DNA of 64,000 bases. It comes from Duganella sp. OV510. Lineage in GTDB: Bacteria > Pseudomonadota > Gammaproteobacteria > Burkholderiales > Burkholderiaceae_D. The DNA lies in assembly GCF_900100205.1 (NCBI RefSeq), contig NZ_FNEQ01000002.1:372001-436000 (forward strand), in the 5' to 3' direction. Positions 4,932 through 24,432 of the stretch are shown here, piece after piece. The notes under the pieces were generated by a model. It made no database searches. It was not told the DNA's origin and saw only the letters and a list, made by a program, of their open reading frames with translations. The position numbers and the translations under genes are program-made. The stretch's first letter is position 1; each line of letters opens with the position of its first letter.

Positions 4932-6608
<1,677 letters not shown>

Positions 6609-6613
6609 TTACA

Positions 6614-7936
6614 TCAGACAGGGTCCGCTTCGTCGCGCACTATGAGGGTCAACACACCGGCAATGACCATGCACACGCCGCCCAGCATCAGCGTCTTGAC
6701 GCTATGCCCCGCAAACCAGTGTTTGGTGACAAAGCCGAGCACCAGGCCGCTGACGATCTGCGGGATGACGATGAAGAAATTGAACACGCCCATGTAGTAG
6801 CCCATGCGGTCCGACGGCAGCGAGCCGGCCAGGATCGCGTACGGCATGGTCAGGATGCTGGCCCAGGCGATGCCGACGCCGATCATCGGGTAGAACAGCG
6901 TGTTCAGGTCGTGAATCGCATAGATGCTGAACAGGCTGACGCCACCGATGACCAGGCAGGCCAGGTGCACGAACTTGCGGCTGGTGTAGCGCGCGAACAC
7001 CGGCAGGATGAACGCCGCCAGCGCCGAGACGCCACCGTACACGGCAAACATCACGCCCACATGGTTGCCGGCTTCCTGGAAGGCGGTCGATTGCGCGTCG
7101 GCGGTGCCGAAGACGTTTTCGCTGACGGCGTTGGTGGTGTAGATCCACATCGCGAACAGGGCGATCCAGGTGAAGAACTGCACCACAGCCAGTTGCACCA
7201 TGGTCTTCGGCATTTTGGTGAAGCCGCTGAAGATTTCGGTCAGCGCCTTGCCCAGCCCCTTGTTGCGCTGCTGCGCGGCGCGGAACGCGGCCAGGTCTTG
7301 CGGTGGCAGTTCCTTGGCGGTCAGCACGGTCCACAACACCGCCAGGAAGTAGACGGCGCCGCCGGCGTAGAAGGAATAGCGCACGGTCTCTGGAATCGTG
7401 CCGTTGATGGCTTCATTGCTGACGCCAAAGTGGGTGAAGATGGTTGGCAGCAGCGAGGCGATCACCGCGCCCCAGCCAATGAAGAAGGTTTGCATCGCGA
7501 AGCCGGCGGTCTGCTGGCGTGGACCCAGCTTGTCGCCGACGAAGGCGCGGAACGGTTCCATCGAAACGTTGATGGCGCCATCCAGCAGCCACAGGACCAC
7601 CACCGCCATCCACAGCGACGTGGAATTCGGCATCAGGAACAGCGCGATCGACGCCAGCAAGGCGCCGATGAAGAAGAATGGGCGGCGGCGGCCCCAGGTC
7701 GGGTGCCAGGTGTTGTCGCTCAGGTGGCCGATGATCGGCTGCACCAGCAGGCCGGTGACCGGCGCGGCCAGCCAGAACAGCGAGAGCTCGTCGGGATTCG
7801 CGCCCAGCGTGGAGAAAATCCGGCTGACGTTGGCGTTTTGCAGCGCAAAGCCAAATTGAATGCCGAAGAAGCCGAGGCTCATATTCCACAGCTGCCAGAA
7901 CGACAGGATGGGCTTGTTGTGGCTGGAAGAATGCAT
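6614..7936 (-). CDS. MFS sugar porter, SLC45/MalY-like (probably maltose)
   Basis: A 440-residue, roughly 12-helix major facilitator. The N-terminus (FWQLWNMSLGFFGIQFGFAL) and the loop after helix 2 (GHLSDNTWHPTWGRRRPF) match the bacterial members related to sucrose/maltose SLC45 porters, which move di- or oligosaccharide across the inner membrane with protons. The frame is open to 8002, but the ATG at 7936 (MHSSSHNKP) fits the family start and leaves a normal divergent promoter region. It heads the operon MFS-pgm-amylase, opposite the GH31 gene. Substrate is inferred from context; glucose or sucrose remain possible. Confidence 0.88.
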   Translation of the reverse strand: MHSSSHNKPILSFWQLWNMSLGFFGIQFGFALQNANVSRIFSTLGANPDELSLFWLAAPVTGLLVQPIIGHLSDNTWHPTWGRRRPFFFIGALLASIALFLMPNSTSLWMAVVVLWLLDGAINVSMEPFRAFVGDKLGPRQQTAGFAMQTFFIGWGAVIASLLPTIFTHFGVSNEAINGTIPETVRYSFYAGGAVYFLAVLWTVLTAKELPPQDLAAFRAAQQRNKGLGKALTEIFSGFTKMPKTMVQLAVVQFFTWIALFAMWIYTTNAVSENVFGTADAQSTAFQEAGNHVGVMFAVYGGVSALAAFILPVFARYTSRKFVHLACLVIGGVSLFSIYAIHDLNTLFYPMIGVGIAWASILTMPYAILAGSLPSDRMGYYMGVFNFFIVIPQIVSGLVLGFVTKHWFAGHSVKTLMLGGVCMVIAGVLTLIVRDEADPV

Positions 7937-7961
7937 GCTGCGCGTCCCGATTTTAAAAATT

Positions 7962-7976
7962 TGTAGCAAAATAACA
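7962..7976. promoter_or_regulatory. putative maltodextrin operator, site 1
   Basis: TGTAGC-AAA-ATAACA matches the palindrome TGTAGT-N3-ACTACA at 9 of 12 arm positions. It sits 26 bp upstream of the MFS start and is the weakest of five related sites in the window, all in the two divergent control regions of the alpha-glucan genes. Confidence 0.4.
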
Positions 7977-8060
7977 CGCTGACCTATGCGTGTCAATCTC
8001 AAGAACTTCCTAGTAAAATAAAGGGAAAAGCCTGTTCAGAGGGCTGGCTATGGTGTCAAA

Positions 8061-8075
8061 TGTAGCCAAACAACA
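8061..8075. promoter_or_regulatory. putative maltodextrin operator, site 2
   Basis: TGTAGC-CAA-ACAACA matches TGTAGT-N3-ACTACA at 10 of 12 arm positions. It lies 31 bp before the GH31 start codon, in the same divergent control region as site 1, so either site could act on both directions of transcription. Confidence 0.5.
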
Positions 8076-8105
8076 AAACCCCAGACAACCACTGAGACCG
8101 AGTTC

Positions 8106-10547
8106 ATGACCATTAACTCCTTTGCAACAATGGCCGCCGTTACGCTGCTGGCCAGCCAGACCGCGCTGGCGCAAAACGCCGACCGCAAGTTCGACAGCGT
8201 CGCCCAGCGCGACGGCCACCTGGAAGTCCGCACCAGCGACGGCAGCTACCTGATCAAGCCCTACTCTGCCGGCATCATCGAAACCACCTTCGTGCCGAAC
8301 GGCGAAAGCGCCGATCCGGCGTCGCACGCCGTGGTGCTGGCGCCGCAAGCCGTCAAGACCTCGCTCAAGCAAAAAGCCGGCAGCATCGAATATGCCACAC
8401 CTGGGCTGGTGGTCACCATTACCAAGTCGCCCTTCCGCATCGCTTATGCATACAAGGGCAAGCCGCTGGTCGCCGAGAAGCGCGGCTACATCCGCGTCAA
8501 GGACGATGTGGCCACCGGCAGCAAGGATATCAACAAAGGCGAGGCGCGCGAACTGGAAGCCATCGAGTTCGCGCTGGACAAGAACGAGGCCTTGTACGGC
8601 GCTGGTTCGCGCGCGGTCGGCATGGACCGTCGCGGCCATCGCTTCACGCTGTATAACAAGGCGCACTACGGCTACGGCGACCGTTCGGAGCTGATGGGCT
8701 ATACGATGCCGGTCGCGCTGTCGTCGAAACTGTACGCGATCCACTTCGACAATCCGCAGATCGGCTACCTCGATTTCGACAGCAAGAAGAACAACAGCCT
8801 GACCTATGAAGCCATTGGCGGCCGCAAGACCTATCAGGTGATCGCTGGCGACACGTGGGAAGACGTAGTCGGCAACTACACCAGCCTGACCGGCAAGCAG
8901 CCATTGCCGCCGCGCTGGGCCTTCGGCAATTTCGCCATGCGCTTCGGCTATCACAACGAGAAGGAAGCGCGCGACACGGTCGACAAGTTCATCGCCGACG
9001 ATATCCCGCTGGATGCGATCGTGTTTGACCTGTACTGGTTCGGCAAGGAAGTCAAAGGCACGATGGGCAACCTGGCCTGGGACAAGGATAGCTTCCCGCA
9101 GCCGGAGGCGATGATTGCCGACTTCCGCAACAAAGGTGTGCAGACGGTGGTGATTACCGAGCCGTTTGTGGTCGACACCTCGAAGCGCTGGCAGGAAGCC
9201 GTCGACAAGAAAGTGCTGGGCACCGGCGCGGATGGCAAGCCACTGGCGTATGACTTCTTCTTCGGCCACACTGGGCTGATCGATATTTTCAGCCAGCCGG
9301 GCAAGGACTGGTTCTGGGATATCTACAAAGGCTTGCGCCAGCAGGGCGTGGCCGGCGTGTGGGGCGATCTCGGGGAGCCGGAAGTGCACCCGACCGAGCT
9401 GCGTCACGCCACCGGCACGGCCGACCAGCTGCACAACATCTACGGCCACCAGTGGGCTGGCCTGGTAGCGGAGGGCTATCAGAAAGACTTCCCGGCCGAG
9501 CGGCCATTCATCCTGATGCGCGCCGGTTACTCGGGCACGCAGCGCTACGGCATCCTGCCGTGGTCTGGCGATGTCAATCGCGGCTGGGATGGATTGCAAT
9601 CGCAGCCGGAGATCGCGCTGCAGATGGGCATGCAGGGCCTGGGCTATATGCACTCGGACCTGGGCGGCTTCGCCAATCCGGTGCGGGACGACGAGCTGTA
9701 TCAGCGCTGGTTGCAGTACGGCGTGTTCCAGCCGGTGTTCCGTCCGCACGCGCAGGAAGAAGTGCCGTCGGAGCCGGTGTATCGCGAAGAGAAGACCAAG
9801 GCGCTGGCGCGCGAAGCGATCCGCCTGCGCTATCGCCTGCTGCCGTATAACTACACGCTGGGCTTCGACAACAACCAGCAAGGCTTGCCGCTGATGCGTC
9901 CGATGCTGTACGAGGAACCGGGCAACGCCAAGGTACGCGCAATGTCATCGACCTACCTGTGGGGCAAGGACATGCTGGTGACGCCGGTGTTGAAGCGGGG
10001 TCAGAAGACGGCTGAGGTCTACTTCCCTGCCCGCAGCGCGTGGTTCGATTTCTACACCGGCGAGCAGCAGGCCGGTGGCGCCACGCGCGCCGTTACGCTG
10101 ACGCCGGACCATGTGCCGGTCTACGTCCGCGCCGGCGCATTCATCCCGATGGTGAAAGTAGTCCAGACCACGCGCGACTACAACACCCGCAATCTCGAAC
10201 TGCATTACTGGCACGACGCTTCCGTGCGCAGCGCTGCCGGCAAGCTGTATGACGACGATGGACTGACCGCGCAAGCCTACGAGCAAGGCAAGTACGAGCT
10301 GGTACGCTTCAGCAGCAAGCTGCAAGGCAAGGCGCTGTCACTGCGGGTAGCGTCGGAAGTCGGCAAGCAGTATCAGCGTCCGGAACGGGCGATCGCGCTG
10401 ACCGTGCACAATGTCACCTCGGCACCATCGTCGGTGCGCGTGGACGGCAAGGTCGTGGTCTTCGCCTGGAATGAAAATACCTTCCAGCTCACGGTGGAGC
10501 TTCCAGCCAGTGATGCCGCCAACCGCAGCATAAACATAGCGCTGTAA
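8106..10547 (+). CDS. GH31 alpha-glucosidase / alpha-transglucosidase, secreted
   Basis: A 813-residue GH31 enzyme with a Sec signal peptide (cleavage probably after TALAQ), acting on alpha-1,4-glucans in the periplasm or at the outer membrane. The nucleophile is D421 in VWGDLGEPEV and the acid/base is D489 in WSGDVNRGWDG; the conserved HSDLGGF lies downstream. The spacing of 68 residues equals that recalled for the Cellvibrio oligosaccharide 4-alpha-glucosyltransferase Agd31B, so transglucosylation is as likely as hydrolysis. It is transcribed divergently from the MFS-pgm-amylase operon. No strong Shine-Dalgarno is visible (only GAG about six bases upstream). Confidence 0.9.
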   Translation: MTINSFATMAAVTLLASQTALAQNADRKFDSVAQRDGHLEVRTSDGSYLIKPYSAGIIETTFVPNGESADPASHAVVLAPQAVKTSLKQKAGSIEYATPGLVVTITKSPFRIAYAYKGKPLVAEKRGYIRVKDDVATGSKDINKGEARELEAIEFALDKNEALYGAGSRAVGMDRRGHRFTLYNKAHYGYGDRSELMGYTMPVALSSKLYAIHFDNPQIGYLDFDSKKNNSLTYEAIGGRKTYQVIAGDTWEDVVGNYTSLTGKQPLPPRWAFGNFAMRFGYHNEKEARDTVDKFIADDIPLDAIVFDLYWFGKEVKGTMGNLAWDKDSFPQPEAMIADFRNKGVQTVVITEPFVVDTSKRWQEAVDKKVLGTGADGKPLAYDFFFGHTGLIDIFSQPGKDWFWDIYKGLRQQGVAGVWGDLGEPEVHPTELRHATGTADQLHNIYGHQWAGLVAEGYQKDFPAERPFILMRAGYSGTQRYGILPWSGDVNRGWDGLQSQPEIALQMGMQGLGYMHSDLGGFANPVRDDELYQRWLQYGVFQPVFRPHAQEEVPSEPVYREEKTKALAREAIRLRYRLLPYNYTLGFDNNQQGLPLMRPMLYEEPGNAKVRAMSSTYLWGKDMLVTPVLKRGQKTAEVYFPARSAWFDFYTGEQQAGGATRAVTLTPDHVPVYVRAGAFIPMVKVVQTTRDYNTRNLELHYWHDASVRSAAGKLYDDDGLTAQAYEQGKYELVRFSSKLQGKALSLRVASEVGKQYQRPERAIALTVHNVTSAPSSVRVDGKVVVFAWNENTFQLTVELPASDAANRSINIAL

Positions 10548-10552
10548 TCCAG

Positions 10553-10575
10553 TTCCCCGCTCACGAAACGGGGAA
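10553..10575 (+). terminator. stem-loop after the GH31 gene
   Basis: TTCCCCG (10553-10559) pairs perfectly with CGGGGAA (10569-10575) around a nine-base loop, six bases after the GH31 stop. There is no T-run, so it is a weak terminator or 3'-end stabilising hairpin. Confidence 0.45.
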
Positions 10576-10619
10576 GCTAGAATGTCGCCATTACCGAATC
10601 TTTTACGCAAGAGGGCGCT

Positions 10620-11531
10620 TTGGCGACATCAAAAAATTCACATCCAAATGCTTCGGACACGAGTCACCTGACTTGGATCGACTTTCTCAAGACCATTTTC
10701 GCGGTAGATAAAGTTCGCACGGCAAAACATCTGCACGCAAAATTCTCACTTGAACAACTGGCGAAGTGCGTATCTGCGATATCGGCTGTCTGCTTCGCCA
10801 TTGGACTACTGTGCACCTCCTTCTACTTTGCCTCCGTTTCGCTTCGCCCGTTCGAGCCTGTCAGCGTACAACAGATATTCCTTGGCGGACTTTATCTTGT
10901 ACTCACTGGACTGACCCTGCTTGTTCCAGCGCGACTGGGAGTGCGCTCAGTCATTGGCTGGTTGATTCAGTTGGCAGCAGCGATACTGCTAATCTTCGAT
11001 AAGCAGTTTCTCAATCAGCTGGCCTACCTCATGGGACACAATGGCACGCATATACCCAATAGTCATTTCTCCTTGATTGTCTTCGACAAAGGCGAAGGGC
11101 TATTTTTCTTTCTAGCGGCATCGATCGCTTTTCATTCGCTTTCAGCTCATCTGAAAGTAAAACAAGGCATCACCACTCTCAGCGTACTCGTCAGGCTATC
11201 AATTAGCGTCCTGGTGTCGCTCCTGGCTTTTAGTACAGCTGTCTACCCACGCATTCCTCTTGCATTGGGTGGCGGAGACTTCCCTGTCATGCGTATAGAA
11301 TTCGACAAGGACACCCCCTATGTGATCACGTCACGATTCGACATATCGAACAACGTTCCAAAATATCAGGGACACAAATACTATGCGCGTTTACTGCATA
11401 GCGAGAAGGATGTGCTGTACCTTACCTCCCTGTTCTGGTACAACAACACCGTAGTTGAGGTACCAAGCAAGCACATCATTGTTGCGGAGTATGGCGACTA
11501 CAATCCAACTACCTACATCCTTCCAGATTGA
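10620..11531 (+). CDS. hypothetical multi-pass membrane protein
   Basis: Unrecognised 303-residue protein. The start is a TTG preceded by AAGAGGG at about five bases. The first 40 residues are polar. Hydrophobic helices follow at roughly 50-75, 84-104, 108-128, 155-172 and 188-208. The C-terminal 90 residues are soluble and contain several Tyr-rich beta-like segments. Base composition is visibly more AT-rich than the flanking sugar genes (codons such as aaa, att and tct are frequent), which suggests separate acquisition. It lies between the GH31 gene and a convergent helicase gene, and no function can be assigned. Confidence 0.65.
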   Translation: MATSKNSHPNASDTSHLTWIDFLKTIFAVDKVRTAKHLHAKFSLEQLAKCVSAISAVCFAIGLLCTSFYFASVSLRPFEPVSVQQIFLGGLYLVLTGLTLLVPARLGVRSVIGWLIQLAAAILLIFDKQFLNQLAYLMGHNGTHIPNSHFSLIVFDKGEGLFFFLAASIAFHSLSAHLKVKQGITTLSVLVRLSISVLVSLLAFSTAVYPRIPLALGGGDFPVMRIEFDKDTPYVITSRFDISNNVPKYQGHKYYARLLHSEKDVLYLTSLFWYNNTVVEVPSKHIIVAEYGDYNPTTYILPD

Positions 11532-11593
11532 CGAGTTACCTCCCTGCCTCAGGATTGGGATTTTTCTGGCGATCTTACCAATCTTGCGCAAGC

Positions 11594-13228
11594 TCAAAGA
11601 CGGTCCAGCAGTTGCTGTTCGGCGCGGTCGCTCAACACCAGCACCAGTTTGAGGCGCGCGCGCGTCATGCCGACGAAGAGTTTGCGCAGCACCAGCTGGT
11701 TCATGTTTTCGAAATCGATTTCGGTAAAGATGATGGCGGGCGCGGACTGGCCCTTGAAGCGGTAGACCGATTCCGCCAGCAAGCCGCCATCGCGGTACTG
11801 CGGATTGCCGAACAAGTCGTATTCGCCGGTGAAGGACTTCAGCGTATGCACCTCGCTTAGCTGGTCGAGATGCAGGATCACCGACTTCTCGCGCCCGCGG
11901 AACGATGCGATCGCGATGTCATGCCGCGCGAAGCCGGCCGACAGGCATGAGGTGATGGCCTTGCGCGTCTGCGCCAGCATCGCTTCGGTATCGCCGTGCG
12001 GATACACCAGTTCTTCGATGTCCGCGCCTTTGAACGGGCTGCCCGCTTCCACCGGCGTTTGCGTTGCGCCGATTGAGGCCAGGATGTCGACGATCTGGCG
12101 CGGGCTGCGGTAGTTGGTGTCGGAGTGCATCGTGACCCAGCCGGGCAGCGCCACGCTGTCTTTGCCGTACAGGTTCTGGTTCGGGTCTTCCAGCCAGATC
12201 GCGCGGCCGTCCTCCTTCAACATGCGCAGCAGGATGTCGCGCCAGGTCTCGGAGAAGTCCTGGCCCTCGTCGACGATCAGCACGTCGTACCGCCAGTCTT
12301 CCGGCAGCTCGGAGGACGCCATCTGCGCTTCGATTTCGCTCCACACATCCGGCGCGGCGTAATTCGGGATCTGTCCGCGCTGGCGGGCAAAGGCGTCGCT
12401 CAGCGAATGGAAACTGGTTACCCGGCCGCCAGGCGGCATCAGGCTTTCGATATGATCGGCCAGCGGCCGGTTGTAGCACACGTATAGCGGACGCAGACCG
12501 GCGTCGATGGCGGCGCCGTATTCCGATAGCGCCAGCTGCGTCTTGCCGCTGCCGGCCGTGCCCACCACGCGCAGGCGGAACGGCTCGAACTCCAGCCGGT
12601 GTGCCCATGTCGCCAGGCCGCCCGACAGCCGCGCCACCATGCGCGCGGCATTACCGATCATCGCGCTGGGATCGGGACGCAGGCTAAGCATATTGCCAAG
12701 GAAGCGCGTTACCTTGTCGAACTGCGCGTCCGGCTTGGGATCGGTGACCGGCAAGATGTCGCGTACCATCTGCGCCAGGTTGTGCTTGCTGTTGGCGTCA
12801 ATGATGTGACGCGGGTCCAGCCCGGCCAGATGCGGCTCGCGCACGATGTAGTCAGGGCAGTACAGCACATAGTCGATCGACAGCTCGGCGCCGAAACGCT
12901 CGGTCAGCACGCTGATGGAACGCATGATGTGCTGCGCCACCCTGCGCGGCTTGCCGGCGTACTGCTTCACCAGGCCGTCCGGCGTCTCGTTGAGGAAGCC
13001 AGCGATCTGCTCGATCAGCAGCACGCGCCCATTCGGCGCCACGATGACGAAGTCCACCTGATCGAAGGCCGAGTAGCCCTTCTCCACATTGGTCCAGTGG
13101 ACGCCGTGGTAGATGTGATACGGCGCCTCCGCCAAGGTCGCATTCAGGTAGGCCAGCGTTTCAATCTCACGCGCCGCCGCGCCGGTTGCCGACATCTCTT
13201 GCCAGCCAGTAGGGTGAAGATGAGCCAT
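11594..13228 (-). CDS. NERD-domain UvrD-like DNA helicase
   Basis: A 544-residue fusion. Residues about 20-130 form a NERD (nuclease-related) domain, with FDQVDFVIVAPNGRVLLIEQ holding the D...E...Q-type core (usually ExK; here an EQ ending). Residues about 205-544 form a superfamily-1 ATPase: Walker A GTAGSGKTQ near 222, Walker B VLIVDEGQDF near 319, NYRSPRQIV (motif IV region), a Q-rich VYRFKGQSAPAI, and VGMTRARLKLVLV at the end. It is shorter than UvrD/Rep and lacks the large accessory subdomains. The roles of NERD helicases are poorly known, with DNA repair or defence suggested. It stands alone between unrelated genes. No clear ribosome site precedes the ATG. Confidence 0.85.
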   Translation of the reverse strand: MAHLHPTGWQEMSATGAAAREIETLAYLNATLAEAPYHIYHGVHWTNVEKGYSAFDQVDFVIVAPNGRVLLIEQIAGFLNETPDGLVKQYAGKPRRVAQHIMRSISVLTERFGAELSIDYVLYCPDYIVREPHLAGLDPRHIIDANSKHNLAQMVRDILPVTDPKPDAQFDKVTRFLGNMLSLRPDPSAMIGNAARMVARLSGGLATWAHRLEFEPFRLRVVGTAGSGKTQLALSEYGAAIDAGLRPLYVCYNRPLADHIESLMPPGGRVTSFHSLSDAFARQRGQIPNYAAPDVWSEIEAQMASSELPEDWRYDVLIVDEGQDFSETWRDILLRMLKEDGRAIWLEDPNQNLYGKDSVALPGWVTMHSDTNYRSPRQIVDILASIGATQTPVEAGSPFKGADIEELVYPHGDTEAMLAQTRKAITSCLSAGFARHDIAIASFRGREKSVILHLDQLSEVHTLKSFTGEYDLFGNPQYRDGGLLAESVYRFKGQSAPAIIFTEIDFENMNQLVLRKLFVGMTRARLKLVLVLSDRAEQQLLDRL

Positions 13229-13336
13229 ATGGTGAACGCCGTAATAAAAAGCCTATTGTAAAACCAACTCCGGGTATGATTGTGCGCTATCGAACAATCG
13301 GTTCGATGGCTTAGATAAAACCCCAGGGAGATGTCT

Positions 13337-15145
13337 GTGACACCAAAAATTATCAGCACGCTGCTGGCCACCGCCCTCGCAGCCGCCAGCGCCACCGCGC
13401 TGGCCGCCCCCACCGCCAAACCGACCGCCGCCGAAGCCGAACGCTTCCTCGCCGACACCGAAGCCAAACTCAATAAGCTGAACAATGAACAGGCCCGCGC
13501 CGCGTGGGTCGGCTCGAATTTCATCACCGACGATACCGAAGCGATCGCTTCCTACTTCGCCGAACGCTACCTCAGCGCTTCCGGCGAAGCCGCCATCGGC
13601 GCGCGCCGCTTCAATGGCCTGAAGCTGTCAACAGCATCGGCACGCAAGCTGATGCTGCTGCAACAGACCGTGGTATTTGCCGATCCGAAGGAACGCGAGC
13701 AGTTCGCCACGCTGCAAGCGGCGCTGAACGGCGCCTACGGCAAAGCCAAATACTGCCCGCAAACCGGCGACTGCATGGCGCTGGGCGAAATGGAAAAAGT
13801 GCTGGCCACCAGCCGCGATGAGGCCAAGCTGAAAGAGATGTGGCTGGGCTGGCACGCGCAGGCGCAAGACTACAAGCAGAAATACGCCGACTACATTGCC
13901 CTGTCCAACAAGGGCGCGCAACAGATGGGCTTTGCCGACACCGGCGCCCTGTGGCGCTCGCAGTACGACATGCCGCCTGAGGCTTTCTCGGCCGAGATGG
14001 AGCGCCTGTGGCAGCAGGTCAAACCGCTGTACGATTCGCTGCACACCTACACCCGCTACAAGCTGCGCGCCACCTACGGCGCCGACGTGGTGCCGCTGAC
14101 CGGCCCGATTCCGTCCCACCTGTTCGGCAATATGTGGAGCCAGAGCTGGAACAATCTGTACCCGATCCTGAAGCCGGCCAACAGCACCAGCAGCTACGAC
14201 CTGGGCAAAGTGCTGGAACAGCGCAAGACCGACGCCAAACAGATGACCAAGTATGCCGAGGGCTTCTACACTTCGCTGGGCATGCAAAAGCTGCCGGCGA
14301 CGTTCTGGGAGCGCTCGCTGCTGACCAAGCCGCGCGACCGTGACGTGGTGTGCCACGCCTCCGCCTGGCCGATGAACGAAAAGGATGATGTGCGCATCAA
14401 GATGTGCATCACGCCGACTGCGGAAGACTTCACCACCATTCACCACGAACTGGGCCACGTCTACTACTTCCTCGGCTACACCAGGCAGCCTTTCCTGTTC
14501 CGCAATGGCGCCAACGATGGCTTCCATGAAGCCATCGGCGACACCGTGGCGCTGTCGATCACGCCAGCCTATCTGAAGCAGGTCGGCCTGATGGACCAGG
14601 AGCCGGACGTCAACGCCGATATCCCGCAACTGCTGGAACGTGCGCTGTCCAAGGTGGCGATCCTGCCGTTTGCCTACACCATGGACAAATGGCGCTGGGA
14701 TGTCTACGCCGGCAAGACCAAGCCTGCTGATTACGACAAGCGCTGGTGGCAGCTGCGCGAGGAGTACATGGGCATGAAGCGCCCGGCGCCCGGTGATGAC
14801 GCCAAGGGCTTTGACGCCGGCGCCAAGTACCATGTGGCCGCTGACGTTTCGTACGCACGCTACTTCCTGGCCGACATGCTGCAATTCCAGTTCCACCGTG
14901 CGCTGTGCCGCGAGGCCGGCTATAGCGGCCCGCTGAACCGCTGCTCGGTCTACGGCAATGCCAAGGCTGGCGCCAAGCTGCAACAGCTGCTGGAACTGGG
15001 CGCGTCGAAGCCATGGCCGGAAGCGTTGAAAGCCATCTCGGGCGAAGACAAGATCGACGGCAACGCGCTGCTCGAATACTTCGCACCGCTGAAGACCTGG
15101 CTGGATCAGCAAAACGCTGCTTTCGCAGCGGCCGAGAAGAAGTAA
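13337..15145 (+). CDS. M2-family peptidyl-dipeptidase (ACE-like), secreted
   Basis: Zinc dicarboxypeptidase of the angiotensin-converting-enzyme family, releasing C-terminal dipeptides in the periplasm or outside. Counting from the chosen start, the zinc motif HHELGH puts ligands at H370 and H374, and the third ligand E398 lies in GFHEAIGD, 24 residues on, as in ACE. A signal peptide with the core IISTLLATALAAASATALAA ends near residue 24. AGGGAG at 13325-13330 abuts an ATG at 13331 with no spacing but lies six bases before the in-frame GTG at 13337, so GTG is preferred; the protein is then 602 residues. A strong hairpin follows the stop. Confidence 0.9.
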   Translation: MTPKIISTLLATALAAASATALAAPTAKPTAAEAERFLADTEAKLNKLNNEQARAAWVGSNFITDDTEAIASYFAERYLSASGEAAIGARRFNGLKLSTASARKLMLLQQTVVFADPKEREQFATLQAALNGAYGKAKYCPQTGDCMALGEMEKVLATSRDEAKLKEMWLGWHAQAQDYKQKYADYIALSNKGAQQMGFADTGALWRSQYDMPPEAFSAEMERLWQQVKPLYDSLHTYTRYKLRATYGADVVPLTGPIPSHLFGNMWSQSWNNLYPILKPANSTSSYDLGKVLEQRKTDAKQMTKYAEGFYTSLGMQKLPATFWERSLLTKPRDRDVVCHASAWPMNEKDDVRIKMCITPTAEDFTTIHHELGHVYYFLGYTRQPFLFRNGANDGFHEAIGDTVALSITPAYLKQVGLMDQEPDVNADIPQLLERALSKVAILPFAYTMDKWRWDVYAGKTKPADYDKRWWQLREEYMGMKRPAPGDDAKGFDAGAKYHVAADVSYARYFLADMLQFQFHRALCREAGYSGPLNRCSVYGNAKAGAKLQQLLELGASKPWPEALKAISGEDKIDGNALLEYFAPLKTWLDQQNAAFAAAEKK

Positions 15146-15153
15146 GCCTCCAC

Positions 15154-15177
15154 CAGGGCAGCAGCTCTGCTGCCCTG
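15154..15177. terminator. terminator hairpin between convergent genes
   Basis: CAGGGCAGCAG and CTGCTGCCCTG form an 11-bp perfect stem around two bases, eight bases after the peptidase stop. It is followed by TTCTGTTTATT, so it can end rightward transcription and probably insulates the convergent gene. Confidence 0.75.
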
Positions 15178-15183
15178 TTCTGT

Positions 15184-15798
15184 TTATTCAAAAGCGACGT
15201 CTTCAAGACGGAAGCGGAACTTGCGGCGCTCCGGCAGCGTCCAGCCTTCACCGGGAGACGTATCGCGCGGGGCGGCGGGAACCGGTGCCGCAGTTGATGT
15301 TACCGCTGTCACCGCGACCACGTCCTGCTGCGGCGCGATTGCCGCAGCAGGATGTGCTTTGCGCACTTCTTCCTGTTCACGGAAGATTTCTCTGCGCAGC
15401 ACACAAGCCAGCTTGAACTGCTTGTCGCCAGGCCGTCGGATATAGAGGTCGCTCCAGGCATTTCGATTCGAGCGCGCAAACGAGCGAGCGAATTGGTTTG
15501 GTGACATTACCTTGCCTTGGTGGACAAGCTGATCGCCCTCAACGCACGCGTAATTGTGCTCTCCGTAGCTCCATGAACGCACAACAGTGCCTTCCGGAAG
15601 AAACACGCTTTTCCATTGGTAGCCGTGTAGTCCATTCGGATCGGCAGTCTTGTGGCGTTGCGTCAGGTCGGCCAACCACAACTCTACCGCCGTAGTAATG
15701 GCCTCCGAGATGTCTTGCGTGCCCTGGCGGCGTTTCAGTTGTTCAACAAGACTGAGCAGGGTGTCCGTAGGTAGCTGCACACTCACTGTGGTAAACAT
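15184..15798 (-). CDS. RHH-like protein with a RAMA-type C-terminal domain
   Basis: A 204-residue protein not recognised as a named family. Residues 3-45 (SVQLPTDTLLSLVEQL...SEAITTAVELWL) look like a ribbon-helix-helix DNA-binding fold. Residues about 62-135 (LPEGTVVRSWSYGEHNYACVE...NRNAWSDLYIRRPGD) resemble the RAMA domain often linked to restriction-modification proteins: a small beta domain with a GT-hydrophobic start, a repeated 'V.G..LVHQGK' turn and an NAW/NGW motif. The tail after 140 is Ala/Pro-rich with a basic end. AGGAG sits about eight bases before the ATG, inside a purine tract that is mirrored upstream. DNA binding is inferred and the target unknown. Confidence 0.6.
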   Translation of the reverse strand: MFTTVSVQLPTDTLLSLVEQLKRRQGTQDISEAITTAVELWLADLTQRHKTADPNGLHGYQWKSVFLPEGTVVRSWSYGEHNYACVEGDQLVHQGKVMSPNQFARSFARSNRNAWSDLYIRRPGDKQFKLACVLRREIFREQEEVRKAHPAAAIAPQQDVVAVTAVTSTAAPVPAAPRDTSPGEGWTLPERRKFRFRLEDVAFE

Positions 15799-15915
15799 TC
15801 TTTTTTCTCCTCTCTTTTCTTCTCTTTTCTCCTATTTAGATCTGCAGAAGCGAAAAGAGTTCAAAAAAGAGGAAAAGAGAAGAAAAGAGAAGGCGAAGCA
15901 GAAGGTTTACCACAG
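15786..15915. repeat. long imperfect inverted repeat covering the RHH-RAMA start
   Basis: CTGTGGTAAAC at 15786-15796 is repeated inverted as GTTTACCACAG at 15905-15915. Inside these, a pyrimidine tract (about 15809-15832) mirrors a purine tract (about 15868-15893). The left arm contains the first codons and purine-rich leader of the leftward gene. In its mRNA the upstream pyrimidine arm could pair with the Shine-Dalgarno and start codon. The mirrored copy has AGG in place of ATG. Confidence 0.75.
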
Positions 15916-15951
15916 GGAGGCGGTACAGAGAGCCATACCTTGATACCCATG

Positions 15952-15980
15952 AAAAAAATGGCGTCCCCTGGGACGCCATT
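15952..15980 (-). terminator. rho-independent terminator of the TonB receptor gene
   Basis: AATGGCGTCCC / GGGACGCCATT is an 11-bp perfect stem with a minimal loop. Read leftward it is followed by seven consecutive T (complement of 15952-15958), 22 bp past the receptor stop. Confidence 0.88.
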
Positions 15981-16001
15981 CTTGTTTCCGGCTAAATCAG
16001 C

Positions 16002-18743
16002 TTAGAACTTGTAGTTCAGGCCGGCCAGCACGGTGCGGCCGTATTTCGCGTATTCCAGCTGTTGCGAACGGTCGCCGTTGTAGGTCTCGTAGGCGGCGTT
16101 GCGCAGGTTGTTAATCTGCAGCACCAGGCCGACACCCTTCATCGCGCCGCTGTTGAAGGTGTAACCAACCTGGAAGTCGATCACGTTTTCACCGACGACA
16201 TAACGCAGCGTGCGGTCGTTGGAGAAGTTGCCGATCTCACCGACGAAGTCCGAACGGCGACGCTGGCTGACACGGGTTTCGAAACCATCTTTCTCGTAGT
16301 AAGCGGTCAGGTTGGTCGTACGCTTCGACAGGCCTGGCAGCGGAATGTTCGAGCCGATATTGCTGCTCGGGTCCTGGATCGAGATCGCGCTTTCGGTGTA
16401 GGTGGTGCTGGCGCTGATGCCGAAGCCGTCCAGCGATTTGCTGATCATGTTCAGCGGCATCGAGCCCGACAGTTCAACACCCTTCAGGATACCGCCCTTG
16501 CCGTTGTACGCAGCGGTGTAGGTACCGATGTTGGTCAGCGGTGGCAGCGTGCCGGTTGGGTAGGTGGTTGGCAGATAGGCCGAGAAGTCATATGGACGGC
16601 CCTGGGTGAAGATGTAGGTATCCAGCTTCTTGAAGAAGCCCGCCACAGCGAAGTACGCCTTCTTGTCGAAGTATTTCTCGTACGAGATATCGAACGCCTT
16701 GGCGCGCCATGGATCCAGACGGGCGTTGCCGCCGCTGGCGCCAGGTTCACGCTTGGTGTTGTCGATGCCGATTTCCAGTGCCGAGCGCAGCTGATCGATA
16801 CGTGGGCGAGCCAGTTGCTTGGCCAGTGCCACACGTACGGTCTGCTGGTTCTCGAAGCCGAACGCCAGGTTCATGCTTGGCAGGTAGTCGGTATAGCTCT
16901 TGCCGTCATGCACAGGCTTGACCGGGTTGGTGCCGGCTGCCGCAGTATTGTCGTAGTAACGCGAATCCGACGACTGGTTGGTGTGCTGGATCTGCACGCC
17001 GATGTTGCCGCGCAGGCTGACCGATGGGCTCAGTTCAGCATCGATATTGGCCTTGGCGTAGGTGGTGGCGATCTTCTCGTTCACGACCCAGGTTTTCGGA
17101 ATCAGGTAGTTCAGGTCGTCGACCGGTGCAAACGACATATACTGGCTGACCATGGCTGGCACGTTCCAGGTTGGAATCGAACCGGCGCCGGCGAAGCCGA
17201 GGTCGGCCAGGCCGTATTGCAGGTTGCCCGGCACGGAAACGTCCGCGCCCACCAGATTGATCGAACCCTCAGGCTGGCGTTTGCTCTTGCTGCGGTCGGC
17301 GTAGTTGATGCCGAAGTCGACGCTGGAGAACGCCTTTTCCCACGAGCCGGTGATCGGCACGTTGATGGCCAGCTTGGCGCTCTTCAGTTCATCTTCGATG
17401 CTCGGCGTCTTGCCGTAGCCGGAACCATAGATCGTATTACCGATGTACAGGTTGCTGGCGTTGCCATAGTTCAGGCCTGGAGTCATCTGCGAGAAGCCGC
17501 CATTGCCGTACACCAGGTTGACCTTGTCCAGCAGGGCCGAGGCGCCGCCGTTGCTGTATTGCAGATTGTTTTCCAGGCTCAGCTCATCGCGCTTGGCCTT
17601 GGAGTAGCTCAGGTCGGCGACAACGCTGAAGTCCTGGGTCTTGAATTCATTGTTCCAGCCGATCGCGCGGATATCATCCTTGCGCTTGTTGTACATGCCG
17701 CGCACCAGCGGACGCACATTGTTCATCGTGCCGCTGGCGATGGTGCCGTCGGCGACGGTGACCGGATTGTAGCTGGACTCGCCCTGCGACAGCGAAATCT
17801 CCAGCTGGTTGGCGGTTTCTTCAGCCTTGAAGCGCGACGCGTAGACATCCAGAGTGCTGGTCCATTGCTTGTTCGGACGGTATTGCAGCACGCCCATCAG
17901 GCCATCACGTTCGTTGCGGCCGCTGCGCGCCACCGCCTTGATGCCGTTGGCGGAGAAGGTGTTGGCCGGCAGGCCGGTGCGCGAGTCCAGCGTCCATGGC
18001 TCATACAAGCCGGTTTCATTGGACAGGATAGGCGTTTCCAGGCGGGCGTAGCCCAGTGCGATACCGATCGTGCGGTTGGCGAACTGGTCGATGTAGCTGG
18101 CGCTGAAGCGGGTGCCGGTGTCCTTGGCGTTGGCGATCTTGCCCAGCGAGTTCTTCTCGCCACGGGCGTTCAGCGCCACGGTGCGGCCGCTGAAGTTCAG
18201 TGGGCGCACGGTTTGCATGTCGATGGTGCCGGACAGGCCCTGGCCAACCAGGCTGGCGTCCGGAGTTTTGTAGACGGTGACGCCAGCCATCAGTTCCGAT
18301 GGGTACTGGTCGAACTCGACGCTGCGGTTGTCGCCGGTCGAGACTTGCTCGCGGCCATTCAGCAGGGTGGTGGCGAAGTCCGGCGACAGGCCGCGCACCG
18401 AGATCACTTGCGCACGGCCGGCAACGCGCTGGGCGGCCAGGCCTGGCAGGCGCGAGATCGATTCAGCGATCGAGACGTCCGGCAGCTTGCCGATGTCTTC
18501 GGCCGAAATGGCTTCGACGATCGAGCTGGCGTCTTTCTTGACCGAGATCGCGTCTTCGATACCGCGGCGGATACCGGCCACGGTGACCGACATGACTTTC
18601 GGCTCTTCGGCGGCTGGCGCTTCGGCGGCGGTGGTTTGCGCATAGGCTGGCGCGGCGGCAGCAGCGATCAGCAGGGCGCAACCAGCGGCGACAGGTTTCA
18701 ATGGGAATGCGGTGTGGCTACGCTTATTTGCGAAGATGTTCAT
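16002..18743 (-). CDS. TonB-dependent receptor, probably for maltodextrins
   Basis: Outer-membrane receptor of 913 residues, importing a ligand into the periplasm with TonB energy. A signal peptide ends near AYAQ (residue 36). The plug domain spans about residues 60-180 (SIAESISRLPGLAAQRV, VISVRGLSPDF, TLLNGRE, GVTVYKTPDASLVGQGLSGTIDM). A 22-strand barrel follows and ends with the aromatic VLAGLNYKF required for outer-membrane assembly. No SusD partner is present, as in Caulobacter and Xanthomonas carbohydrate receptors (MalA type). GAGGGG lies eight bases before the ATG. It is divergent from a GH13 gene across 512 bp carrying three copies of the shared palindrome. The ligand is inferred from context. 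Confidence 0.9.
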   Translation of the reverse strand: MNIFANKRSHTAFPLKPVAAGCALLIAAAAAPAYAQTTAAEAPAAEEPKVMSVTVAGIRRGIEDAISVKKDASSIVEAISAEDIGKLPDVSIAESISRLPGLAAQRVAGRAQVISVRGLSPDFATTLLNGREQVSTGDNRSVEFDQYPSELMAGVTVYKTPDASLVGQGLSGTIDMQTVRPLNFSGRTVALNARGEKNSLGKIANAKDTGTRFSASYIDQFANRTIGIALGYARLETPILSNETGLYEPWTLDSRTGLPANTFSANGIKAVARSGRNERDGLMGVLQYRPNKQWTSTLDVYASRFKAEETANQLEISLSQGESSYNPVTVADGTIASGTMNNVRPLVRGMYNKRKDDIRAIGWNNEFKTQDFSVVADLSYSKAKRDELSLENNLQYSNGGASALLDKVNLVYGNGGFSQMTPGLNYGNASNLYIGNTIYGSGYGKTPSIEDELKSAKLAINVPITGSWEKAFSSVDFGINYADRSKSKRQPEGSINLVGADVSVPGNLQYGLADLGFAGAGSIPTWNVPAMVSQYMSFAPVDDLNYLIPKTWVVNEKIATTYAKANIDAELSPSVSLRGNIGVQIQHTNQSSDSRYYDNTAAAGTNPVKPVHDGKSYTDYLPSMNLAFGFENQQTVRVALAKQLARPRIDQLRSALEIGIDNTKREPGASGGNARLDPWRAKAFDISYEKYFDKKAYFAVAGFFKKLDTYIFTQGRPYDFSAYLPTTYPTGTLPPLTNIGTYTAAYNGKGGILKGVELSGSMPLNMISKSLDGFGISASTTYTESAISIQDPSSNIGSNIPLPGLSKRTTNLTAYYEKDGFETRVSQRRRSDFVGEIGNFSNDRTLRYVVGENVIDFQVGYTFNSGAMKGVGLVLQINNLRNAAYETYNGDRSQQLEYAKYGRTVLAGLNYKF

Positions 18744-18846
18744 TTAATGTCCCCTCTCATGACACAAAATTTAAGTCCCGCAAAGAGCTGCACTACACGG
18801 GAACCAAGGAATGACGACGTTCTAAAGACGTTCTGGGGAAGAATTC

Positions 18847-18861
18847 TGTACTAAAACTAGA
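18847..18861. promoter_or_regulatory. putative maltodextrin operator, site 3
   Basis: TGTACT-AAA-ACTAGA matches TGTAGT-N3-ACTACA at 10 of 12 arm positions, 103 bp before the receptor start codon and suitably placed for receptor control. Confidence 0.45.
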
Positions 18862-18977
18862 TTGTGTGTCAATCAAACTTCCCTGCCACTACGGATTACA
18901 AGCCTCGCACATCAAGGCTTGCCCTACGATAGCCGCATTGACGTTGTATTTCGGCTACAAGAGAATGATCGCCAACT

Positions 18978-18992
18978 TGTAGTAGAACTACA
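18978..18992. promoter_or_regulatory. putative maltodextrin operator, site 4 (perfect palindrome)
   Basis: TGTAGT-AGA-ACTACA is a perfect inverted repeat with a three-base spacer, in the middle of the 512-bp control region (18744-19255). Apart from sites 3-5 that region shows only AT-rich promoter-like DNA. Confidence 0.6.
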
Positions 18993-19225
18993 GGCCACAC
19001 ACCAAATAGCAGCTTTTATGAAAACAAAACTCACGCTACAACCAGGTTCAGGCAAGCAAATTGACAGGATTTTCCGACGTGAAACTAATTTTGAAGGAAA
19101 ATAACGAAGAATATGTATCTGGAGTAAATTTTATCGTCGTGAATGCGTTTGATATCGCAGCGATTTACGCGTATTCTCTCGAAAAATCAACGCACTAAGC
19201 CTGATCAAGCAAAAAAATACGGGCA

Positions 19226-19240
19226 TGTAGTACGACTACC
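19226..19240. promoter_or_regulatory. putative maltodextrin operator, site 5
   Basis: TGTAGT-ACG-ACTACC matches the palindrome at 11 of 12 arm positions, 15 bp before the GH13 start codon. It is close enough to overlap the transcription start, so repression is plausible. Confidence 0.58.
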
Positions 19241-19255
19241 TAAAACGGAGACCGC

Positions 19256-21115
19256 ATGAAAAAAGCCCTGCTGGCGACCTTATTCGCCGCCCTCACGCCC
19301 GCCATCGCCGGCGCCGCACCACACCCCTACCGCATCGATCACATGGATCCGCCGCTGTGGTGGACCGGCATGCACAACAGCAAGCTGCAACTGATGGTAC
19401 ACGGTCCGCAAATTGCGGATCTGGACCCGGCACTGAACTATCCGGGCGTGCGCATCGCCAGCGTATCGCGCGTGGCCAGCCGTAATTACCTGTTTATCGA
19501 TCTGGAGATCGCCCCCGAGGCCAGGCCTGGCAAGCTGGAGCTGGTATTCCAGCGCGGTACGCAAAGCATCCGCTACCCGTATGAACTGCTGGCGCGGGCA
19601 GCCGGCTCGGCGCAGCGCGCCGGCTTCAACAGCGCCGACGCCATTTATCAAGTGATGCCGGACCGCTTTGCCAACGGCGACCAGGGCAACGACAGCGTGG
19701 CCCGCTATGCCGACCAGCTGAATCGCGCCGATGGCTCGGGACGGCACGGCGGCGACATACAGGGCATCATCAATCATCTGGACTATGTGGCCGGCATGGG
19801 CTTCACCCAGCTGTGGCCGACGCCGCTGCTGGAATCGAATATGCCGCACGGCTCCTACCACGGCTACGCCTCCACCGACCATTACCGCATCGACCCGCGC
19901 TACGGCAGCAACCAAGGTTTCCGCCAGCTGGTGACGCAGGCGCGCGCCAAAGGCATCGGCGTGATACAGGACGTGGTGCTGAACCACATCGGCAACAAGC
20001 ACTGGTGGATGCAGGACATGCCGATGCCGGACTGGCTGACCTACCAGGGCAAGTATGTGCCGACTGCGCACCACCGCGTGGCGGTGCAGGACCCGTATGC
20101 ATCGGACGAGGACAAGCGCAACTTCACGCAGGGCTGGTTCGTGCAGGGCATGCCGGACCTGAACCAGGCCAATCCCTACGTGGCCAACTACCTGATCCAG
20201 AACAGCATCTGGTGGATCGAATACGCCGGCCTGTCCGGCCTGCGCGTGGATACCTACGGCTATTCGAATACCGACTTCCTCAGCCGCTGGTCCGGCGCGG
20301 TGATGGCCGAGTATCCGCAACTGAACCTGGTGGGCGAGGAATGGAGCCCGCTGATACCGGTGGTGGCGCACTGGCAGCGCGGCAAGCGGAATTTCGACGG
20401 CTACGTGTCGCACATGCCAAGCATGATGGACTTCCCCCTGAACGACGCCTTGCGCCGCGCGCTGGTGGCGCCGGACGGCGCCGAGCAAAGCCTGACCACG
20501 CTGTACGAAACGCTGTCACAGGATTATCTGTATCCGGATGCGGCCAATCTGGTCCTGTTTGAAGGCAACCATGACCTGTCGCGCATCTACAACGCGCTCG
20601 ACGAAGACCAGGATCTGTTCCGCATGGCGATGGCGGTGGTGGCGACGCTGCCGCGCATTCCGCAGTTCTACGCGGGCACCGAGATCCAGATGACCAGCAC
20701 CACCAAGGGCCGCGACGACGCTTCCTATCGCCGCGACTTCCCTGGCGGCTGGGCGGGCGACAAGGTGAACGCCTTCACCGGCGAGGGACTGACGCAGCAG
20801 CAGGCCAGCGCGCAGGCCTACATCCGCAAGCTGCTCAACTGGCGCAAAACCGCCGGCGTGATTCATCACGGGAAGCTGATGCACTATGGGCCGGAACAGA
20901 ACACCTATGTGTATTTCCGCTACGACGGTGCCAAAAAAGTGATGGTGGCGCTGAATAAGAACAAGACCGACACCACGCTGCCAACCGCGCGCTTCCATGA
21001 AATGCTGAATGGCGCGCGCGCAGGTGTGGATGTCATCAGCGGCCAGCGTGTATCGCTGGACGGACAAGTGACATTGCCGGCACGTTCCGCACTGATACTG
21101 GAGATCGAACAATGA
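19256..21115 (+). CDS. neopullulanase / cyclomaltodextrinase-like GH13 (SusA type)
   Basis: Secreted GH13 enzyme of 619 residues that should cleave cyclodextrins, pullulan or maltodextrins in the periplasm. A signal peptide ends near residue 20 (AGAAPHP). Residues about 21-105 form the N-terminal beta-sandwich (MDPPLWWTGMHNSKLQLMV) typical of cyclomaltodextrinases. The TIM barrel carries D332 in LRVDTYGYS, E361 in LVGEEWS and D440 in EGNHDLSR. The C-terminal beta domain ends ARSALILEIE. GGAG lies five bases before the ATG and operator site 5 just upstream. Its stop codon overlaps the next start (ATGA), so the two genes are translationally coupled. Confidence 0.92.
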   Translation: MKKALLATLFAALTPAIAGAAPHPYRIDHMDPPLWWTGMHNSKLQLMVHGPQIADLDPALNYPGVRIASVSRVASRNYLFIDLEIAPEARPGKLELVFQRGTQSIRYPYELLARAAGSAQRAGFNSADAIYQVMPDRFANGDQGNDSVARYADQLNRADGSGRHGGDIQGIINHLDYVAGMGFTQLWPTPLLESNMPHGSYHGYASTDHYRIDPRYGSNQGFRQLVTQARAKGIGVIQDVVLNHIGNKHWWMQDMPMPDWLTYQGKYVPTAHHRVAVQDPYASDEDKRNFTQGWFVQGMPDLNQANPYVANYLIQNSIWWIEYAGLSGLRVDTYGYSNTDFLSRWSGAVMAEYPQLNLVGEEWSPLIPVVAHWQRGKRNFDGYVSHMPSMMDFPLNDALRRALVAPDGAEQSLTTLYETLSQDYLYPDAANLVLFEGNHDLSRIYNALDEDQDLFRMAMAVVATLPRIPQFYAGTEIQMTSTTKGRDDASYRRDFPGGWAGDKVNAFTGEGLTQQQASAQAYIRKLLNWRKTAGVIHHGKLMHYGPEQNTYVYFRYDGAKKVMVALNKNKTDTTLPTARFHEMLNGARAGVDVISGQRVSLDGQVTLPARSALILEIEQ

Positions 21116-24100: not shown

Positions 24101-24432
24101 CCGCGATCATGGGCTCCTCACTGGGCGGCATCGCCTCGGTGTACATCGGCCAGAAATACCCGCAGGTATTCTCCAAGGCCGCCGGCGTATCCAGTTCGTT
24201 CTGGTGGAATGAGCAGATGTTCATCAAACAGCTGCCGCCGCGCTCACCGGTCAAGTTCTACCTCGACGCCGGCACCAACAACGACGGCATCGAAGACACC
24301 CGAAAAATGCGCGACGCCATGCAGGCCAAAGGCTATGACCTGTACTACCACGAAGCCGAAGGCGGCATCCACAATGAAAAATCGTGGGCCGCGCGCGTCG
24401 ACATTCCGCTGACCTGGTTCTTCAGGAAGTAA
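21112..24432 (+). CDS. six-hairpin glycosidase fused to an esterase-D-like hydrolase
   Basis: A 1106-residue secreted fusion. After a long signal region (core [17 protein letters not shown], residues 24-40), residues about 60-480 form an (alpha/alpha)6 barrel like GH15-type or related six-hairpin glycosidases ([56 protein letters not shown]). Beta-sandwich segments span about 490-860. Residues about 865-1106 are an esterase-D-type alpha/beta-hydrolase with GSSLG (nucleophile S1003), a YLDAGTNND acid region and the GGIHNEKSW histidine. I cannot place the glycosidase in a numbered family. GGAG lies eight bases before the ATG, which overlaps the GH13 stop. The last 11 bases overlap the convergent chemoreceptor gene. 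Confidence 0.82.

Follow-up and report, generated by a model that had tools for sequence, protein, structure and literature searches.

The alpha-glucan locus and its boxes

The window analyzed here is a stretch of 64,000 bp from Duganella sp. OV510 (contig C27:372001-436000; the contig measures 620 kb) and contains part of a gene cluster for alpha-glucan uptake and degradation. The control regions of this cluster feature a 15-bp palindrome, TGTAGT-N3-ACTACA, here termed the box, to which matches were counted over the 12 arm positions. Judged from sequence comparison, the boxes are, with a probability of roughly 75%, the operators of a HexR-type (RpiR-family) regulator, namely the glucokinase–HexR fusion (glkHexR) encoded in the neighboring GH13–glkHexR operon (GH, glycoside hydrolase).

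The window contains two divergent gene pairs of this cluster. In the first, a major facilitator superfamily (MFS) sugar transporter gene (6614..7933, minus strand; GPH sucrose-symporter-like; PF07690 2.1e-26; TIGR01301 2.5e-32, below cut-off) probably heads an operon with the genes of an alpha-D-glucose phosphate-specific phosphoglucomutase (PGM; 4932..6563, minus strand; NF005737, 953 bits versus a cut-off of 378) and a GH13 alpha-amylase-type enzyme (3262..4920, minus strand; PF00128 1.1e-32). The opposite gene encodes a GH31 alpha-glucosidase-type enzyme (8106..10547, plus strand; PF01055 2.9e-82). The second pair consists of a TonB-dependent receptor gene (16002..18743, minus strand; TIGR01782 1.7e-185, above cut-off) and the gene of a GH13 cyclomaltodextrinase-type enzyme (19256..21115, plus strand; PF09087, PF00128, PF10438). 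The latter overlaps by 4 bp with a gene for a hairpin glycosidase/amylo-alpha-1,6-glucosidase-like and esterase protein (GDE/esterase; 21112..24432, plus strand; PF00756 4.4e-32; PF17389 4.7e-7; PF06202 4.9e-4, below cut-off), and the two probably form an operon.

The cluster continues to the left of the window. There, the minus strand features a GH13 alpha-glucosidase-type gene, followed at 62 bp by the gene of a 635-aa protein in which glucokinase is fused to an RpiR-type helix-turn-helix (HTH) and SIS domain; the plus strand features a POT-type transporter gene and a pullulanase gene. The fusion gene, second in its operon, is separated from the window start by 7.9 kb. The original prediction, which had the regulator encoded elsewhere, was thus right in that the likely factor lies outside the window, but the gene is not distant and belongs to the same cluster. 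The claim that the window holds no regulator gene stands for the LacI and RpiR families, for which a genome-wide profile search gave no match there, and for the 17 open reading frames of the first 31 kb that the Pfam search covered.

Six boxes lie in the two divergent intergenic regions, and the palindromes are given without strand. The box at 7962..7976 (9/12 arm matches; TGTAGCAAAATAACA) belongs to the promoter of the MFS operon: on the minus strand, a promoter-like TTGACA-17-TATTTT with a TG before TATTTT spans 7996-7968, and its predicted −10 element, assigned by consensus match only, overlaps the box. Upstream of MFS, 20 of 21 same-genus genomes have a match with three mismatches at the corresponding position. 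It is the weakest of the sites predicted originally, and its conservation may partly be that of the promoter, because of this overlap. The box at 8061..8075 (10/12; TGTAGCCAAACAACA) lies 30 bp before the GH31 start codon. On the receptor side, the box at 18847..18861 (10/12; TGTACTAAAACTAGA) directly follows TTGACA, a −35-like element in the promoter of the TonB receptor and again a consensus match only, and a box of this type is found at −115 to −151 relative to the receptor in 18/18 genomes. The box at 18978..18992 (12/12; TGTAGTAGAACTACA) is perfect and the sole exact match in the 6.43-Mb genome; upstream of the receptor, it is exact in 17/18 genomes and has one mismatch in G005. At a distance of 33 bp, a further box at 18945..18959 (10/12; TGTATTTCGGCTACA) is missing in G003 and G020 only. 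The box at 19226..19240 (11/12; TGTAGTACGACTACC) lies 15 bp before the cyclomaltodextrinase start codon, and a box with at most two mismatches is found within 100 bp of this start in 15/15 genomes; in G002, G016, and G022, these near-start boxes all belong to the receptor-side group. The five sites of the original prediction were recovered at the exact coordinates and with the same arm matches (9, 10, 10, 12, and 11 of 12), and the box at 18945 is absent from that list.

The boxes are concentrated in these regions. At up to three mismatches, the window contains 23 sites, compared with a mean of 6.28 and a maximum of 12 in 100 shuffles, and 6 of the 23 are located in the intergenic regions 7934-8105 and 18744-19255 (684 bp of 64,000). 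At up to two mismatches, five of six sites lie in the two regions—the sixth, at 9841, is inside the GH31 gene—and at up to one mismatch, two of two. The binomial probability for five of six sites in 684 bp is 1e-9, for regions picked post hoc. Equal density in coding DNA, which was named beforehand as a ground for discarding the boxes, was hence not observed.

In the whole genome, nine sites carry at most one mismatch. Five of these lie in control regions of this regulon: two in the window, two just left of it, and one before a glucokinase gene; the other four are inside reading frames. The two sites to the left belong to the divergent region between GH13 and the transporter and to the upstream region of the pullulanase gene (L016:14108). 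The free-standing glucokinase gene on contig C6 (L017:6093-7248) features two boxes 52 bp apart, both of which recur at up to two mismatches in 22 of 23 loci (search of 37 genomes, own included); the gene is likely a further member of the regulon. With two mismatches allowed, the genome-wide count of 106 sites, part of which was examined individually, is uninformative, as the reversed-pattern control yields 448.

Conservation in same-genus genomes

Including the own genome, 24 of 25 genomes of the genus have the fusion, and up to 40 kb beside it was compared in 20 of the 24 relatives; counts of 21 include the own genome. GH13, transporter, pullulanase, phosphoglucomutase, MFS, and GH31 genes remain near the fusion in 20/20 relatives, with rearrangements. 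A countable match to the receptor occurs in 17/20, often just 38 to 47% identical, and the cyclomaltodextrinase in 14/20.

A box was scored as conserved if it occurs with at most two mismatches in the 300 bp upstream of a gene, the own genome being counted. It is found upstream of the GH13–glkHexR operon in 21/21 genomes and of the transporter, which shares this region, in 21/21; upstream of the TonB receptor in 18/18, of the cyclomaltodextrinase in 15/15, of MFS in 21/21, of GH31 in 16/21, and of pullulanase in 12/21. In the five genomes without a GH31 box, a box remains with MFS. The receptor promoter features the main box, a second one at 33 bp (16/18), and a third one about 131 bp away (18/18). 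The spacings between boxes amount to 33, 63-64, 99-100, and 131 bp, with 74-76 replacing 99 in some relatives, and are hence not all whole helical turns. The comparison of orthologous upstream regions, which had been proposed as a check, thus shows the box before the same genes in 21 same-genus genomes, and this conservation supports the co-regulated regulon of alpha-glucan uptake and degradation that the original prediction put forward.

Control genes behave differently. At the same threshold, no box is found upstream of glkHexR itself (0/21), the inner GH13 gene (0/21), phosphoglucomutase (0/21), GH92 (0/9), EAL (0/8), and UvrD (0/2). Upstream boxes are present for the M2 peptidase in 2/20, for GDE/esterase in 3/15, and for MCP in 1/13, and five of these six cases can be explained. 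At up to one mismatch, the control set contains 10 sites, versus at most 1 for any permuted arm. Five of the 10 are located in upstream pieces that run over kilobases at locus starts (PepM2 in G024, MCP in G023). The other five precede the GDE/esterase genes of G003, G015, and G023. In these genomes, no cyclomaltodextrinase gene was found to separate GDE/esterase from the receptor, so that the upstream sequence is the divergent region of the receptor. The remaining control hit at up to two mismatches is PepM2 in G007. The target set comprises the expected 138 × 315 bases and is hence unaffected by such overlong pieces, with divergent regions counted from both sides; here, the true arm yields 96 sites at up to one mismatch and the best of 59 other letter permutations 2.

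Occurrence in the family

The exact box is present in 20 of 116 family genomes with 24 sites in total. Of these, 20 lie before genes that are related to the TonB receptor, cyclomaltodextrinase, or pullulanase genes described here; the others lie before priA (two), near an ABC-transporter gene (one), and on a 3.5-kb contig without match (one). These four sites away from regulon genes, together with the four of nine sites inside reading frames in the own genome, could suggest that the palindromes are chance or structural repeats with no regulatory role. This is contradicted by the conservation test, by the gap that separates the true arm from its 59 permutations over one set of upstream regions, and by the preserved spacings—the same set of receptor-side boxes recurs in other genera with its distances kept—and its likelihood is practically negligible. 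The two exact boxes before priA (L288:6823, after hemE; L291:6418) belong to two genomes of one genus and show no link to sugar.

The box co-occurs with the fusion. Of the 27 family genomes whose fusion shows 72% identity or more, 18 contain the exact box, versus 2 of 89 others. In the 23 genomes with a cyclomaltodextrinase, a close fusion goes along with a box within 600 bp in 15/19, and a fusion of only 53 to 56% identity in 0/4. In two more genomes with a close fusion, G092 and G147, the box is farther from the cyclomaltodextrinase, by the receptor. In G092, a solute-binding protein and further frames are found between cyclomaltodextrinase and TonB receptor (L292:2303-6504), which may represent an added ABC uptake route under the same box.

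Relatives from named organisms with a fusion include Duganella, Massilia, Pseudoduganella, and Rugamonas. The best 80 of 192 gave 74 loci, 66 of which have a GH13 gene and enough upstream DNA. In these, the GH13 gene carries a box within 300 bp in 61/66 (at most one mismatch) or 63/66 (at most two). The glkHexR gene follows the GH13 gene on the same strand in 64/66 and within 300 bp in 63/66. Several relatives, mostly Massilia, feature two Glk–HexR fusions per alpha-glucan cluster (L229, L232, L234, L239, L242, L246, L247, L250, L253, and L254).

The glucokinase–HexR fusion as candidate regulator

LacI operators are even, CG-centred palindromes. The original prediction suggested LacI-type factors as candidates, and a LacI-family maltose regulator encoded elsewhere could bind the boxes: the genome has 14 LacI-family matches. 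However, none of the 14 is located on the 620-kb contig of the window, the box is odd-centred as in the HexR/RccR type, and the cluster itself contains a HexR-type gene. A LacI-type factor is hence very unlikely, and the identification of the boxes as LacI operators was dropped, even though LacI-family regulators of maltose genes are described in the part of the literature cited (PMC4052901).

The RpiR family has three matches in the genome: the fusion; a stand-alone HexR adjoining zwf; and a third protein (contig C16), adjoining a GH92 gene. The third was considered as regulator of the boxes and rejected, as no link to them was found.

The fusion features a Glucokinase domain (1.8e-105) followed by HTH_6 (1.3e-17) and SIS (2.8e-18), the latter two above cut-off. 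With its RpiR-type HTH and SIS domains, it has the domain make-up of the HexR/RccR group, and the box has the form of the sites of this group, i.e., 15 bp, odd-centred, and with TGTA/TACA ends; the fusion is the putative binder. Among solved structures, the RpiR-type proteins 8ju9 and 8k3b match the regulator part of the fusion at 1e-58 (202 bits for 8ju9). Arginine and serine are present at the DNA- and effector-contact positions of RccR (Arg-53/-56, Ser-139/-183), if the numbering of 8ju9 equals that of RccR. Among 52 fusion loci, R53, R56, and S183 are found in 52 each and S139 in 43. Since the numbering fits, 8ju9 itself may be RccR, a binder of TGTAGT/ACTACA.

The glucokinase part matches the solved glucokinase 1q18/1sz2 at 1.7e-76, of which we take 1sz2 to be E. 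coli Glk. Over the 52 fusions, the NDF aspartate is kept in 50/52 and the SEGGH and TER residues in 52/52; these are presumably active-site residues. Because the motif residues are retained, the fusion is probably both enzyme and regulator. The model NF010701 (bifunctional transcriptional regulator/glucokinase, PRK14101) matches residues 23-608 with 834.6 bits, below the cut-off of 920 bits. The fusion hence has the NF010701 architecture, yet is outside of the curated equivalog group.

Stand-alone HexR and a second site type

A competing candidate is the stand-alone HexR of the own genome, encoded beside zwf (L068:3335-8005) on contig C27, at about 265 kb to the left of the window. The own zwf features two AT-rich TGTAGTAAATTTACA-type sites 32 bp apart, and the own edd/pgi region carries TGTAGTAAAATTTCA. 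Within the genus of the window, zwf carries a TGTAGTAAATTTACA-type site in 13/16 regions. With these AT-rich zwf and edd/pgi sites, the genome contains two types of HexR-like operator.

The two modules can be compared in the surroundings of ten related fusions (about 49 to 56% identical). Six of the ten adjoin zwf, and this zwf carries the box TGTAGTAATGCTACA in 6/6, 59 to 70 bp before its start. In the same six genomes, another zwf lies next to a stand-alone HexR gene. For zwf beside stand-alone HexR, neither site type was found at up to two mismatches in 7/9 regions (the six genomes and G061), the box in 0/7.

Two alternatives are to be weighed against these data. In the first, the stand-alone HexR binds the boxes in one central-carbon regulon, and the fusion is mainly a glucokinase. 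Its location beside zwf, sites that share the TGTAGT half, its closer match to 8ju9 (230 bits versus 202 for the regulator part of the fusion), and the expansion of HexR regulons in some lineages, as described in the cited part of PMC5343134, speak for this. Against it, zwf with stand-alone HexR has no box in 7/7 genomes of other genera, opposed to 6/6 for zwf in the fusion operon, and carries a different AT-rich site in 13/16 same-genus and 2/2 further genomes; over the family, the box tracks the fusion. We regard this alternative as improbable. In the second, the boxes are shared, with the fusion as local repressor and the stand-alone HexR as global one. The related recognition helices and overlapping half-sites would allow for this, but different operons keep different site types. 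Sharing is rather unlikely, and it is compatible with the fusion as regulator, with which its odds overlap.

Several observations weigh against the fusion as dedicated regulator of the boxes. First, the association has exceptions: 9 of the 27 close-fusion genomes lack the exact box, and kinship confounds the figures for co-occurrence of box and fusion. G006 (83% complete) has no fusion and keeps weaker boxes before glk; perhaps, the fusion is lacking there owing to genome incompleteness. Second, four of the ten related fusions (G088, G041, G134, and G082) have no adjoining zwf. While G134 features a box with one mismatch 141 bp before the fusion, no box was found at up to one mismatch near the fusion in G088, G041, and G082. 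The G082 fusion (54% identical; L294) even lies in a glk–glkHexR–pullulanase–GH13–GH31 cluster and may use another operator. Third, in G092 and G058, both with a close fusion, the zwf beside stand-alone HexR has TGTAGTAAATTTACA. The zwf/edd-type sites TGTAGTAAATTTACA and TGTAGTAAAATTTCA lie 2 to 4 mismatches from the box; because the own sites are this close, the stand-alone HexR could also bind the alpha-glucan boxes. Its identity to the regulator part of the fusion is 39%. Finally, S139 is replaced by A or C in 9/52 fusions, and the recognition helix, VSQPT in the fusion and VSEPT in stand-alone HexR and 8ju9, gives no decision. The helix as a decisive argument was therefore dropped: the E form is also that of 8ju9, whose numbering agrees with that of RccR, a binder of the box.

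Relation to known systems

RccR of Pseudomonas fluorescens binds the 15-bp sites TGTAGTTTTACTACT and TGTAGTAAAACTACA (PMC5489143), and the site upstream of pullulanase in the present cluster (L016:14108) equals TGTAGTTTTACTACT read on the opposite strand. In the cited passages, RccR resembles the present system in the box TGTAGT-N3-ACTACA, the paired boxes per promoter, the RpiR HTH and SIS domains, and the key residues that match the fusion. It differs in that RccR governs pyruvate metabolism, the glyoxylate shunt, and gluconeogenesis, whereas the boxes described here mark alpha-glucan uptake and degradation, and in that RccR is described as an HTH–SIS protein without glucokinase (PMC5489143), whereas the candidate carries one.

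HexR of Vibrio, Shewanella, and Pseudomonas shares the RpiR family, the control of glucose metabolism, and a response to 2-keto-3-deoxy-6-phosphogluconate (KDPG) (PMC11906056, PMC5343134, PMC5489143). The predicted site of Vibrio HexR, TGTAATTAAATTACA, likewise is an odd-centred 15-bp palindrome TGTA..TACA (PMC11906056). The targets named in the cited passages of these three papers are, however, zwf, edd, eda, glk, pgi, glgX, and similar genes; neither a TonB receptor nor GH31 or pullulanase is named there.

Glk–HexR fusions are known by name in Burkholderia and Paraburkholderia and have the same domain make-up as the present one (PMC12568896; NF010701). Related fusions of about 55% identity lie in zwf operons whose promoter features a box with one mismatch. 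According to the cited part of PMC12568896, the fusion there belongs to a zwf–pgl–glk cluster, in contrast to the alpha-glucan cluster described here, where no adjoining zwf was found. In the open-licence PMC literature, judged by titles and abstracts, no Glk–HexR fusion controlling alpha-glucan genes was found. The box is known from Pseudomonas and such fusions from Burkholderia/Paraburkholderia.

Proposed mechanism

Direct observations comprise the sites and their conservation, the gene neighborhood, the domain architecture, and a cross-genus association of box and fusion. The best reading of them is that the fusion has been re-used as a dedicated repressor of the alpha-glucan regulon; binding, repression, and effector are assigned here by inference. 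Without alpha-glucan, the fusion would occupy the boxes, which overlap the core promoters or lie close to them, and repress the cluster, i.e., seven promoters or operons: GH13–glkHexR; the POT-type transporter; pullulanase; MFS–PGM–GH13; GH31; the TonB receptor; and the cyclomaltodextrinase operon. The free glucokinase gene would likewise be repressed. The positions of the boxes over the −10 element (7962), after the −35-like element (18847), and near the start codon (19226) would suit repression.

Imported maltodextrin would then be degraded to glucose, which is phosphorylated by Glk and converted via zwf/edd to KDPG. Binding of KDPG, or of another sugar phosphate, to the SIS domain would release the boxes, so that the circuit amounts to derepression by a metabolite that stems from the glucose of the glucan itself. 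The effector is likely KDPG-like, because the RccR contact residues are present in the own fusion. It is conceivable, if doubtful, that the fusion acts as a one-protein flux sensor, in which the state of the glucokinase part—with glucose or glucose-6-phosphate bound—directly gates DNA binding by the HexR part. The alpha-glucan genes would then answer glucose flux ahead of KDPG, unlike in the HexR proteins of the cited papers.

For Duganella, Massilia, and their relatives, this assignment names a candidate regulator of starch and maltodextrin utilization and shifts the expected family from LacI to RpiR/HexR. The regulator would couple starch and maltodextrin uptake to glucose metabolism. If true, a central glucose regulator fused to an enzyme of its pathway has become the dedicated switch of a polysaccharide cluster. 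The parallel modules of the relatives, zwf with HexR and zwf with Glk–HexR, offer a natural test of operator separation between two HexR-type proteins.

Further genes of the cluster

Between the two divergent pairs, the window at 11594-15145 encodes a helicase-like protein (UvrD_C_2, AAA_19) and an M2 peptidase within the alpha-glucan cluster. The M2 peptidase is present in the cluster in 20/20 relatives examined.

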